Part shown: in pieces, positions 45,557 to 60,186 of the stretch | Numbering within the stretch: the first letter of the stretch is position 1 | Layout: each line of letters opens with the position of its first letter | Source of the DNA: Porphyrobacter sp. CACIAM 03H1 | Lineage (GTDB): Bacteria; Pseudomonadota; Alphaproteobacteria; Sphingomonadales; Sphingomonadaceae | Direction: 5' to 3' | Length of the DNA stretch: 64,000 nt | Assembly (NCBI RefSeq): GCF_002215495.1 | Contig: NZ_CP021378.1 | Span: forward strand, 1,107,846 to 1,171,845 | The notes under the pieces: model-generated | What the model was told of the DNA's origin: nothing | Database searches by the model: none | What the model saw: the letters and a program-made list of their open reading frames with translations, nothing else | Position numbers and translations under genes: made by a program

Positions 45557-46144
45557 CTAGAGCACCCGCATCACCCCGAAATCGATCGGCTTGAAGGTGC
45601 CGCCGTTGGAGGCATAGGCCGAACAGGCGGTGAGGCCCACGACCAGATCCATTTCCGCGCGGAAGCGGACGAGATCGCCGGGCTTCGTCTGTGGCGGCAG
45701 CACCGCCAGCCTGCCGTCGGGCGCGATGGTCACGTTCATGAAGATGTTGAACGCCGCCGGAATGCTGTCCGGCTCGACCCCGAAGGGTGCGAGCGCCTCG
45801 GCGAGATTGCCGAAGCAGCCGCGGTGCACCGGCTTGTCCGGATAGAAGTGGCGGAAGGTGTCCTCGGAGCAGGGCGTCAGCAGGAAATCGTGGTGCGGCG
45901 CGGTGTCCTCGATGATCGTCAGCATCACCCGCGAGCGGTTCGACCACAGGCGCGCGCCTGTGGTCAGGCGCAGGCTTTCCTCGTAATCGAAGGTCCGCCC
46001 GTTGGAGAGGATCTCGCGCGGATCCTCGGCCGAAACTGCCAGCATGTCGCTCACCTGCCCGCCCTCGGGGTCGATCACGGTAAGCTCCGCCCCGCGCGGC
46101 AGGCGCAGGGCGATCCCGCTGCGCGGCGCGATCCGCTCGATCAC
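45557..46144 (-). CDS. Urea-carboxylase-associated (DUF1989) protein
   Basis: 195 aa. Features of DUF1989 are RLPRGAELTVIDPEGGQVSD, FNIFMNVTIAPDGRL and the Cys-containing LTPCSEDTF. Family members are found beside urea carboxylase/guanidine-degradation genes and related hydrolases, and are probably metal-binding enzymes. No urea carboxylase is near here. Its ATG overlaps the YqcI/YcgG stop (ATGA), so the two are cotranslated. Last gene of the leftward set that begins at 52.36 kb. Confidence 0.88.
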   Translation of the reverse strand: MIERIAPRSGIALRLPRGAELTVIDPEGGQVSDMLAVSAEDPREILSNGRTFDYEESLRLTTGARLWSNRSRVMLTIIEDTAPHHDFLLTPCSEDTFRHFYPDKPVHRGCFGNLAEALAPFGVEPDSIPAAFNIFMNVTIAPDGRLAVLPPQTKPGDLVRFRAEMDLVVGLTACSAYASNGGTFKPIDFGVMRVL

Positions 46145-46872
46145 GAGCCCCGCCTGCCCGCGGCGAAGGGGCAGACCCAGTCCTCGCCGACCATCCGCCC
46201 GCTGTATTGCCGCGCCTCGCTGGTCTCGCCGTGGCGGGCGAGCATGGGGTTGGGCTCGCCGTCGAGCGCCGCGTCGCGGGCGAGGATCACCTCGCGCATA
46301 CGTTCGTAGCGTTCGGCCTCGCGCAGCGCGGTGAATTGGTCGTGGAGGTTGAAGACGATCGTGGGTGCCGGCGCGCGGCGGGCGGCGCGCGAGGCCTGCG
46401 GGTGGAGCCCGACCGCGAAATAGGCCCTGCCGCCGAAGCTGAGCGCGAAGGAAGGGTCGCCCGGATCGTCGCTGTATCCCGGCGCAGGGGCGAAGCCGCG
46501 CGCGCGGTCGATCGCGGTGAGCGCGGAAAGCCGCGCCCAGAGCGCCGCCTCGAAGCCGACCTCATCCAGCCCGCGCGGCCCGGCGAACACCACGGCGAGG
46601 CTGCGGAAGGTTCCCTCGTCGCCATCGGGCTCCCGGCTCCACCGCGCGATCCGGTCGTGGATGCGCAGATCGTCGGCAGGCGCGAGGATCGAGAGCGCGG
46701 CTTCCACCGCGAGCCCCCCCTGCGCAAGGGCGGACTTGGCGCCGACACAGGGGAAATCCGGCTGTTCGATCAGGTCGATCAGTCCGGCCTCGAGCCGTTC
46801 GTGCATGGCGGGGGCGGGGGCGGTGGGCAATCTTTGGCCCGGCGGGAGGATATGTCTGGTCTGGATATTCAC
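46141..46872 (-). CDS. YqcI/YcgG-family protein, possible heme N-hydroxylase
   Basis: 243 aa from GTG 46872; ATG 46806 is an alternative. Segments PDFPCVGAKSALAQGG, RSLAVVFAGP, GFAPAPGYSDDPGDPSF and NLHDQFTALREAERYERMR are typical of YqcI/YcgG. Members include the heme-dependent GntA N-hydroxylase of guanitoxin synthesis and arginine-type hydroxylases. Paired with DUF1989 here by a 4-base overlap, 43 bases after the Gfo/Idh gene. A role in modifying a guanidino or amino group is suggested, not shown. Confidence 0.82.
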   Translation of the reverse strand: MNIQTRHILPPGQRLPTAPAPAMHERLEAGLIDLIEQPDFPCVGAKSALAQGGLAVEAALSILAPADDLRIHDRIARWSREPDGDEGTFRSLAVVFAGPRGLDEVGFEAALWARLSALTAIDRARGFAPAPGYSDDPGDPSFALSFGGRAYFAVGLHPQASRAARRAPAPTIVFNLHDQFTALREAERYERMREVILARDAALDGEPNPMLARHGETSEARQYSGRMVGEDWVCPFAAGRRGS

Positions 46873-46915
46873 GCAGGCAGGGTAACGGCGGGGCCCGCGC
46901 ACGAACCTGCCCAGG

Positions 46916-58082: not shown

Positions 58083-59173
58083 GGCTCGTCGTTCTCGGGC
58101 TCGCGCTGTCCTCATCGTGGGGCAACGGCCACGCCACCACCTTCCGCGCGCTGCTCGCCGCCTTCGCCGCGCGGGGACACGAGGTGCTGTTCCTCGAACG
58201 CGACGTGCCGTGGTATGCAGAGCACCGCGACCTCGCCGATCCCGACTTCTGCGAACTCGCATACTACGACAGCCTCGCCGCACTTGCGGACTGGCGCGAG
58301 ACGATCGCTGAGGCCGACGCGGTGATGGTCGGCTCCTACGTGCCCGACGGCATCGCGGTCGGCGCCTTCGTGCAGGCCCATGCACGCGGGCTGACGTGCT
58401 TCTACGACATCGACACCCCCGTGACCCTCGCCGCGCTCGACCGGGGGGCGTGCGACTACCTCTCGCGCGAGGTGCTGGCGGGATACGATGTCTATTTCTC
58501 CTTCACCGGCGGGCCGACGCTGGAGCGGCTGGAGCGCGAATACGGCGCCCGCGCCGCACGGGCGCTCTACTGCTCGGTCGACACCGCGCGCTACCGCCCG
58601 CTGGATGTGCCGGTGCGCTGGGACCTCACCTATCTCGGCACCTACAGTCCCGACCGCCAGCCGACGCTCGAACGGCTGCTGATCGAACCGGCCCGGGCGC
58701 GGCCCGACCTGCGTTTCGCCGTCGCCGGGCCGCAATATCCCGAGGACATCGACTGGCCCGCCAATGTCGAGCGGATCGCGCACCTGCCGCCCGCCGACCA
58801 CCCCGCCTTCTATTCTGCCTCGCGCTTCGCGCTCAACGTCACCCGCGCCGACATGATCGCCGCCGGCTGGTCGCCCTCGGTCCGCCTGTTCGAGGCGGGG
58901 GCCTGCGGGACGCCGATCATCTCCGACCGCTGGGACGGGATCGACAGCCTGCTCGCCCCGGGGCGGGAGATCATCCTGGCCGAAGACAGCGCCGACGTGC
59001 TCGCCGCGCTGGACCGCGATGCCCGCGCCATCGGCACGGCCGCCCGCGCCGCGGTGCTCGCGCAGCACAGCGCCGAGGCCCGCGCCGCCGGGTTCGAGGC
59101 CGATCTCGCCCGCGCCATCGCCGGGCGCCAGAATGACAAGGCAGACCCTGCCGACAGGAGAGAAGTGGCATGA
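58079..59173 (+). CDS. CgeB-like glycosyltransferase (3)
   Basis: 364 aa, third paralogue. MRLVVLGLALSSSWGNGHAT opens it; FYDIDTPVTLAALD and FSFTGGPTLERL match the middle of copy 2; the C-terminal SVRLFEAGACGTPIISD is the donor-site block. The last ~25 residues are charged. Overlaps the following epimerase start by 4 bases. Copies 2 and 3 appear closer to each other than to copy 1. Confidence 0.86.
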   Translation: MRLVVLGLALSSSWGNGHATTFRALLAAFAARGHEVLFLERDVPWYAEHRDLADPDFCELAYYDSLAALADWRETIAEADAVMVGSYVPDGIAVGAFVQAHARGLTCFYDIDTPVTLAALDRGACDYLSREVLAGYDVYFSFTGGPTLERLEREYGARAARALYCSVDTARYRPLDVPVRWDLTYLGTYSPDRQPTLERLLIEPARARPDLRFAVAGPQYPEDIDWPANVERIAHLPPADHPAFYSASRFALNVTRADMIAAGWSPSVRLFEAGACGTPIISDRWDGIDSLLAPGREIILAEDSADVLAALDRDARAIGTAARAAVLAQHSAEARAAGFEADLARAIAGRQNDKADPADRREVA

Positions 59174-60186
59174 CACGACAAGAGGATGGCTGGACCCTGG
59201 TGGCCGGCGGCGCGGGCTTCATCGGCTCGCACCTGTGCCGCACGCTGCTGGAGGCCGGCGAGCGCGTGCTGTGCCTCGACAATCTCCAGACCGCGCGCCT
59301 TTCCAATCTCGATGCCCTGTCGGAATACCCGGGGTTCCGCTTCGTGCGCGGCGACATCTCGCAGGCCCTGCCGGTCGCGATCACCCGCGAGACCGGCGCA
59401 ATCGCGCGCATCTACAATCTCGCCTGCGCCGCCTCCCCGGTGCTCTACCAGGCCGATCCCGAGCACACGATGCTCACCAACGTGGTCGGCACCGACCGGC
59501 TGCTGCGCCTTGCCGAGCAGGCGGGGGCGCGCTTCCTGCAGGCCTCGACCAGCGAGGTCTATGGTGATCCCGACGTCCACCCCCAGCCCGAGGCCTATCG
59601 CGGCAATGTCAGCTGCACCGGCCCGCGCGCCTGCTACGACGAGGGCAAGCGCGCCGCCGAGACGCTCGCCTTCGATTTCGCCCGGGGGCGGCGGGCGGAT
59701 GTGCGGGTGGCGCGGATCTTCAACACCTATGGCCCCCATATGCGCATGGACGACGGGCGGGTGGTGTCGAATTTCATCTGCCAGATCCTCGCGGGCGAGC
59801 CGCTGACGATCTACGGCGCGGGCAGCCAGACCCGCAGCTTCTGCTATGTCGAGGACACGGTCGACGCGCTGATCCGGCTGATGCGCGCCGAGATGCGCGA
59901 GCTGGTGCCGGTCAACATCGGCAACCCGCACGAGATCACCATCGCCGAACTGGTCGAGACGCTGGGCGCGATCGCCGCCCGGTCGGTGCGCGTCACCCAC
60001 CGCGACCTGCCGGTCGACGATCCCGAACGCCGCCGCCCCGACATCGCGCGGGCGCGTGCGTTGCTGGGCTGGGAGCCGGCGACGCCGCTTTCGGCGGGGC
60101 TGCGCCAGACCTTCGCGTGGTTCGCCGCCGAGCGCCGCGCGCTCGCGGGCGTGCCGCCGGTGGTCCGCGTCACCGCTGCAGGGTGA
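59170..60186 (+). CDS. UDP-glucuronate decarboxylase-like epimerase (3)
   Basis: 338 aa. Extended SDR: AGGAGFIGSHLCRTL (first Thr replaced by Ala), STSEVYGDP, and the catalytic YDEGKRAAE, a sequence characteristic of UDP-xylose synthase (UXS) relatives; RIFNTYGPHM and the late VNIGNP are also typical. Likely turns UDP-glucuronate into UDP-xylose or a related conversion, supplying a donor to the glycosyltransferases. Last gene of the rightward operon; convergent with the receptor gene 21 bases on. Confidence 0.9.
   Translation: MTRQEDGWTLVAGGAGFIGSHLCRTLLEAGERVLCLDNLQTARLSNLDALSEYPGFRFVRGDISQALPVAITRETGAIARIYNLACAASPVLYQADPEHTMLTNVVGTDRLLRLAEQAGARFLQASTSEVYGDPDVHPQPEAYRGNVSCTGPRACYDEGKRAAETLAFDFARGRRADVRVARIFNTYGPHMRMDDGRVVSNFICQILAGEPLTIYGAGSQTRSFCYVEDTVDALIRLMRAEMRELVPVNIGNPHEITIAELVETLGAIAARSVRVTHRDLPVDDPERRRPDIARARALLGWEPATPLSAGLRQTFAWFAAERRALAGVPPVVRVTAAG

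Follow-up and report, generated by a model that had tools for sequence, protein, structure and literature searches.

Fifteen genes, labelled g1 to g15, lie at 45557–60186 of a 64,000-nt stretch of Porphyrobacter sp. CACIAM 03H1 (hereafter the window), and were taken in a preliminary description as one divergent gene set for a possible glycoconjugate. Thirteen of them (g3–g15, 46916–60186) form a module, and g1–g2 (45557–46872) are a separate pair. All 15 open reading frames (ORFs) were found again at the positions and on the strands first described, and the tight junctions and the 241-base divergent gap were reproduced. With the chosen starts, 4-nt overlaps joined g1/g2, g3/g4, g6/g7 and the genes at all six right-operon junctions; the leftward gaps were 2 bases (g4/g5 and g7/g8), 17 bases (g5/g6) and 43 bases (g2/g3). 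The length of the divergent gap (52356–52596) holds for an ATG start of g8 at 52355 and a TTG start of g9 at 52597. Family scans agreed with the earlier calls of a phosphatase, a TIGR04290 methyltransferase, inositol-phosphate synthase (INO1), a zinc alcohol dehydrogenase (ADH), Gfo/Idh, YqcI/YcgG and DUF1989 proteins, short-chain dehydrogenases/reductases (SDRs), a GT4 and three CgeB-type glycosyltransferases. The features are:

45557–46144, minus strand: g1, DUF1989 protein (Pfam and NCBIfam scans); outside the module, pairs with g2.
46141–46872, minus strand: g2, YqcI/YcgG protein of the GntA-type heme N-hydroxylase family (PF08892/NF041366; 227.6 bits on NF041366, cut-off 145); outside the module.
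46916–47938, minus strand: g3, Gfo/Idh/MocA oxidoreductase (family scans and structure comparison; nearest solved structure DgpA).
47935–48891, minus strand: g4, zinc ADH of the medium-chain dehydrogenase/reductase type (family scans).
48894–50003, minus strand: g5, INO1 (family scans; PF01658, 123 bits, cut-off 27).
50021–50941, minus strand: g6, PslG/GH39-like glycosidase of clan-A type in circularly permuted form; E10 and E113 are its likely catalytic residues (sequence and model).
50938–51756, minus strand: g7, TIGR04290 methyltransferase dependent on S-adenosylmethionine (SAM) (345 bits, cut-off 300).
51759–52355, minus strand: g8, histidine phosphatase (PF00300), proposed inositol-phosphate phosphatase (family scans; expected active-site residues conserved across the family).
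52356–52596, no strand: divergent promoter gap, with an EcfG-type motif in relatives, degenerate in the window.
52597–53712, plus strand: g9, extended SDR of the nucleoside-diphosphate-sugar epimerase type (family scans; by solved structures a general UDP-sugar epimerase type).
53709–54791, plus strand: g10, extended SDR, nearest to CDP-tyvelose 2-epimerase (family scans and solved structures).
54788–55900, plus strand: g11, GT4 glycosyltransferase (family scans; weak MshA match below cut-off).
55897–56994, plus strand: g12, CgeB-type (PF13524) glycosyltransferase (family scan).
56991–58082, plus strand: g13, CgeB-type (PF13524) glycosyltransferase (family scan), used as the right-operon marker.
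58079–59173, plus strand: g14, CgeB-type (PF13524) glycosyltransferase (family scan).
59170–60186, plus strand: g15, SDR of the UDP-glucuronate decarboxylase type (UDP-xylose synthase; E 6e-90 against solved structures).

The genes g3–g15, or subsets of them, recurred in the same layout across 88 homologous stretches (the best 80 named contigs listed and 8 wide stretches, some ending at contig edges), indicating that the grouping exceeds chance. ORFs called in the relatives' loci included many spurious ones, and only family-scanned ones were used. Neither g1 nor g2 was present in any of the 88 stretches, and among the 83 rows of the locus table the two were found in the window alone. A g2 homologue occurred in 10 of 41 genomes of the window's genus (the window's genome counted), and at all 10 non-window loci (9 genomes) g1 directly adjoined g2, and the 3.6 kb retrieved contained neither g3 nor g4. 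Because they are absent from the homologous clusters and paired elsewhere in the genus without g3/g4, g1 and g2 were set apart, and the fifteen-gene unit of the preliminary description was ruled out.

The module is patchy in distribution yet co-inherited. Among 196 genomes of the window's order, TIGR04290 scored above its cut-off in nine and g13 (E ≤ 1e-20) was found in the identical nine; the window's genome was the sole carrier of both among the 11 same-genus genomes of this sample. Where the right operon was missing from the glycosidase locus, g13 was found elsewhere in the genome (11 of 11 searched), so that the neighbourhood check proposed earlier, once run, showed the two operons to co-occur. 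Of 385 genomes of the class, eight had full-length g6, and six of these eight belong to families other than the window's; of 398 genomes of the phylum, 12 had it, all from the window's class. Plasmid records with g6 or g13 came chiefly from Sinorhizobium, Rhizobium, Roseomonas, Paracoccus and Azospirillum, and S. meliloti 1021 carries orthologues of all thirteen module genes on pSymB (242466–257896). The module occurs in many bacteria of plants, soil and water. Some loci had additional features. A 679-residue ORF in Sphingomonas melonis AS2.3 (L126, 16131–18170) starts as g14 and may be a g14–g15 fusion; a weak GT9-like gene lies between g8 and g7 on the opposite strand in many loci (e.g. L052, 8039–9280); and in about 19 loci (e.g. 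L053, 12746–14020; L121, 18876–21351) the gene after g3 encodes a polysaccharide pyruvyl transferase, paired in S. meliloti with an FrhB-like gene.

Two families of the gene set, TIGR04290 (meth_Rta_06860) and TIGR04295 (B12_rSAM_oligo, a B12 radical-SAM family), are hypothetical families of NCBIfam, and no reaction or product was seen in their models. In clusters of Azospirillum, Tistrella and others, a TIGR04295 gene (722 bits in Azospirillum, cut-off 400) was present in the right operon and g3/g4 were not seen. Eighty whole cluster-bearing genomes were searched (of 94 listed; the 14 left out all show g3 and g4 at the locus): the radical-SAM gene was found in 20 and g4 in 60, with no genome having both and none having neither. 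Of the 83 locus rows, 49 had g3 and g4, none had g4 alone, and four had g3 alone, with g4 elsewhere in those genomes. Plasmid tallies by genus agreed (g13, 146 records; g4, 136; radical SAM, 9, from other genera; about two g13 records had neither g4 nor radical SAM on that replicon), these being genus-level counts in which some plasmids, e.g. that of Tistrella, appear to come from genomes already counted. One of the 136 g4 records is a Xanthomonas sacchari plasmid with a homologue of 57% identity (NZ_CP010410.1, 482365–483303), although the g13 tally does not name that genus, and Bradyrhizobium sp. 195 has its g13 and TIGR04295 homologues on two separate plasmids (NZ_CP082162.1 and NZ_CP082163.1). 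The CxxxCxxC motif of the radical-SAM enzyme was conserved. On a tree of eight proteins from 46 genomes (a quick tree, no bootstrap), the trait changed five times, at least four of the changes being forced by strongly supported branches. These results indicated that the zinc ADH+Gfo/Idh pair and the TIGR04295 enzyme replace each other exclusively.

The replacement suggests one required step with two enzymatic solutions. Redox epimerisation was proposed for it because this is the simplest reaction within reach of both, and the reaction itself is a guess. Two observations speak against a shared step exchanged several times: a tree of g13 only (81 rows) also gave five changes, of which one was forced by strongly supported branches, and most of the relatives known for TIGR04295 are methylases or BchE-type enzymes, its weak NCBIfam relatives including C-methylases. 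The pair and the radical-SAM enzyme could instead be alternative decorations, giving two chemotypes of one core and not acting on the same bond. Such C-methylase relatives would suit this explanation, and exclusion in 80 of 80 genomes is equally compatible with two products; an optional decoration, however, would not be expected to leave no genome with neither, and the exchange has recurred with either form of the glycosidase (see below) and inside two families (f77 and f181). We regard two chemotypes as unlikely, though the best placed of the alternatives to the product proposed below.

For the preferred single step there is a parallel in 2-deoxystreptamine biosynthesis, in which a zinc ADH performs the step of the enzyme BtrN in other aminoglycoside producers. 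BtrN is a radical-SAM iron-sulfur enzyme that oxidises the cyclitol 2-deoxy-scyllo-inosamine (PMC9012708, as far as its available part goes), and the likeness lies in the radical-SAM oxidation of a cyclitol hydroxyl. BtrN, however, is a twitch-domain and not a cobalamin-type enzyme, and in the module one radical-SAM gene replaces two dehydrogenases. The exclusive swap with an NAD-dependent pair offers a way towards the function of TIGR04295.

The divergent gap was compared over 69 loci, the window included (genome G125 is probably present twice, as L037 and L109); the loci are related to each other, so the counts are not independent draws. EcfG promoters have been described as GGAAC-N16 followed by CGTT, TGTT, CATT or GGTT (PMC7083833, available part) and, in S. 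melonis Fr1, as GGAAC-N17-20-GTT (PMC6599016, available part). The motif GGAAC-N16/17-[CT]GTT was directed towards g9 in 29 of the 69 gaps (0.3 expected from shuffles, at most 3) and towards g8 in 14 (0.17 expected, at most 2). With a G[GC]AAC anchor, selected for a purine-rich spacer, a site was present in 67 of 69 gaps, and 45 of these 67 had a -10 like CATT, TGTT or CGTT at 16–17 bases. In sphingomonads and Paracoccus, the motif with a wider -10 was found upstream of g9 at 38 of 51 loci (0.53 expected). Outside these groups it was found upstream of INO1 at 12 of 18 loci (0.17 expected; one genome accounts for two of the 12), of g9 at 7 of 24 (0.23 expected) and of g4 at 1 of 4. Internal genes used as controls gave none (g12, 0/58; g13, 0/57; g14, 0/53; g10, 0/51), and g4 in sphingomonads gave 1 of 45. 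In Rhizobium etli CFN42, EcfG sites in both directions were found between g9 and the ADH gene.

The module's relatives thus carry promoter sites like those of the EcfG/RpoE2 general stress regulons of Alphaproteobacteria. Against such control stand the window's own gap, with no EcfG motif on either strand, and Azospirillum, Roseomonas and Tistrella, also with none; the window gap retains the neighbouring block and has GGTAC in place of the relatives' GGAAC. A further difference is that no module gene was matched to a published regulon list. As judged from these sequences, the relatives' module promoters probably carry EcfG-type general-stress control, and the window's own copy is not included in this claim. 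In S. melonis Fr1, a glycosyltransferase operon (3505–3509), a zinc ADH (2499) and a catalase (2489) are EcfG-dependent (PMC6599016, available part). These were considered as the module itself and no identity is claimed: the AS2.3 gene order is unlike 3505–3509, and by eye none of the genes called near the cluster was a catalase. In the main text of the R. etli EcfG paper (PMC3892343), a term search turned up no p42b gene.

The g6 protein (306 residues) had no Pfam or NCBIfam match. By phmmer it matched PslG and GH39 xylosidases weakly (GH39 xylosidase, E 0.01), and the weak PslG alignment (E 0.003) was in swapped order, g6 residues 3–187 pairing with PslG 132–321 and residues 202–295 with PslG 26–129. 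A 36-member g6 profile gave the same swapped order at E 7e-7. Seven distant homologues (ORFs of 703–1104 codons) contained both g6 parts in canonical order (30–37% identity for the N part and 29–36% for the C part), followed in 7 of 7 by a g10-like epimerase domain. Rotated g6 scored higher in local alignment in all 15 pairs (3 permuted × 5 unpermuted), with the best cut at residues 192–216. The better AlphaFold model of g6 (pLDDT 83.5, residues 157–171 poor) had eight strands (4–7, 47–51, 75–80, 109–114, 143–145, 199–201, 225–231 and 255–261). All 36 members have both E10 and E113, which come after model strands 1 and 4; in canonical numbering these strands are 4 and 7.

By its eight-strand barrel, an acid/base Glu after strand 4 (in NEP) and a Glu after strand 7, g6 belongs with clan GH-A, with predicted activity, but its strand order departs from the canonical one, being swapped against both PslG and 7 of 7 fused relatives. 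The swapped alignment, the gain on rotation, the strand order and the positions of the catalytic Glu residues together indicated that g6 is a natural circular permutation of a clan-A-type barrel, starting at canonical strand 4. Foldseek and VIA-align on two g6 models gave generic barrels only, PslG not being among the matches listed; sequential aligners cannot follow a permutation. With GH39/PslG, g6 shares the WNEPN acid/base motif, the second glutamate, the eight-stranded barrel and weak sequence matches; it differs in its start at canonical strand 4, its length of 306 residues, the absence of a family-model match and the absence, on a crude scan, of a signal-like hydrophobic stretch. The glucansucrases of GH70 are a circular permutation of the GH13 barrel that likewise starts at helix 3/strand 4 (PMC11046441, available part). 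They resemble g6 as naturally permuted barrels but belong to another clan with another catalytic set, whereas the unpermuted sister of g6 is fused to a sugar epimerase. Among the papers listed by a literature search on circularly permuted glycosidases, none had a case resembling g6. The glycosidase form changed four times on the eight-protein tree, and the permuted enzyme and its unpermuted, epimerase-fused sister make a natural experiment in barrel evolution.

The g5 gene was the only PF01658 match in the window's genome, and its GDD and GGN segments were conserved in 53 of 53 matched rows. INO1 was absent from 42 of the 88 homologous stretches, and among genomes of such stretches it was present in all 34 searched whole (33 and S. 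melonis AS2.3); eight of the 42 loci were outside this search (L033, L078, L083, L085, L091, L102, L105 and L107). In AS2.3 (L130, 12139–14677), the INO1 gene outside the cluster is flanked, by eye, by CDP-alcohol phosphatidyltransferase-like and nucleotidyltransferase-like genes. The residues K95, D176 and H180 of g3 (53 of 53 matched rows) and C37, H61 and E62 of g4 (49 of 49) were conserved.

The inositol scaffold proposed in the preliminary description stands as far as INO1 was found in every searched genome lacking a local copy; it is weakened by the fused-glycosidase clusters, among them those of R. etli CFN42 and Tistrella, in whose fetched stretches INO1 and the phosphatase were not seen (the whole genomes were not searched for INO1). 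The equivalog scores also tell against it: g3 reached 104 bits on inositol 2-dehydrogenase IolG (TIGR04380, cut-off 355), g4 86.9 bits on scyllo-inosose 3-dehydrogenase IolM (NF041097, cut-off 450) and g5 448.6 bits on the mycothiol INO1 (TIGR03450, cut-off 638), the best equivalogs of g3 and g4 thus lying under their cut-offs.

A pathway can be proposed from the families and their pairing. INO1 (g5) would convert glucose 6-phosphate to inositol phosphate, from which g8 would remove the phosphate. One hydroxyl, either on the cyclitol or on a sugar attached to it, may be oxidised and re-reduced by g4 and g3, a net epimerisation, and in the 20 of 80 genomes in which the cobalamin radical-SAM enzyme takes their place that enzyme would carry out the step. 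Nucleotide sugars, UDP-xylose among them, would be supplied by g9, g10 and g15, up to four sugars attached by g11–g14, and a methyl group added by g7. The glycosidase g6, linked to g10 through the fusion in sister clusters, may trim or transfer a sugar. EcfG-type control, seen in the sequences of relatives, would act on the whole. The product would be a soluble, xylose-containing, methylated, inositol-headed glycoside made under stress, and the chemistry given earlier (a polyol or sugar scaffold, its oxidation, methylation and glycosylation) would be of this kind.

That the module, under general-stress control, makes a soluble, methylated, inositol-headed oligosaccharide we put at even chances. 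The fuller claim is more tentative and somewhat less probable: that this is a new alphaproteobacterial class of stress metabolite, a cyclitol-headed oligosaccharide with one stereochemical step performed by either a two-dehydrogenase relay or a cobalamin radical-SAM enzyme, cleanly swapped on several occasions, and with a permuted intracellular clan-A glycosidase that has an epimerase-fused sister. The stress promoter, the circular permutation and the replacement of ADH+Gfo by radical SAM had been missed in the preliminary description; these and the INO1 link are new relative to the TIGR04290 and TIGR04295 models. In the open-access literature no paper naming either family or describing the gene set was found, and a search for S. 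meliloti by pSymB locus names returned nothing on the cluster. Model strains carry the module on their replicons (S. meliloti pSymB, R. etli p42b, Azospirillum), so that a general-stress product would be within reach of ordinary genetics and metabolomics.

Three other readings were weighed. Phosphatidylinositol, or a lipid like it, might receive the sugars at the inner membrane face, giving a glycosylated inositol lipid; the AS2.3 INO1 gene that follows a phosphatidyltransferase-like gene is consistent with it. The cluster phosphatase, however, would yield free inositol, the conserved set has no lipid synthase, and on a crude scan none of the 15 proteins had a strongly hydrophobic stretch, so that a lipid seems to us improbable, a little more so than two chemotypes. 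A surface polysaccharide with its export genes elsewhere is less probable still. The closest relative of g6 with a solved structure, PslG, is part of an exopolysaccharide system, and the pyruvyl transferase gene after g3, found also in S. meliloti, would fit. Yet g6 has no signal-like stretch and, in agreement with the earlier statement that lipid carrier, flippase, polymerase and export genes are missing, neither a priming transferase nor Wzx/Wzy nor an ABC exporter was recognised among the 13 module genes or in the cluster part of four annotated relatives (the search for export genes did not extend to whole genomes). Breakdown of a plant or microbial inositol glycoside, to which a glycosidase, a Gfo/Idh protein nearest to DgpA and an ADH would be suited, is very improbable, given four glycosyltransferases, UDP-xylose synthase, INO1 and a methyltransferase, all biosynthetic, no conserved transporter, and stress promoters instead of a substrate regulator.

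Outside the module, the g1–g2 pair (DUF1989 and GntA-type YqcI/YcgG), overlapping or adjacent, is conserved in the genus without the cluster (window 45557–46872; L196–L205). Beside g1, the window has genes of the holin-X type and of DUF3618 (43592–45513); judged by eye, the pair in L196 (2777–3598) and L198 (38–847) likewise has next to it a protein that begins similarly. On the other side, convergent to g15, lies a gene for a TonB-dependent-receptor-like protein with a carboxypeptidase-regulatory-like domain (60208–63252), seen in one of the 83 table rows, that of the window itself.

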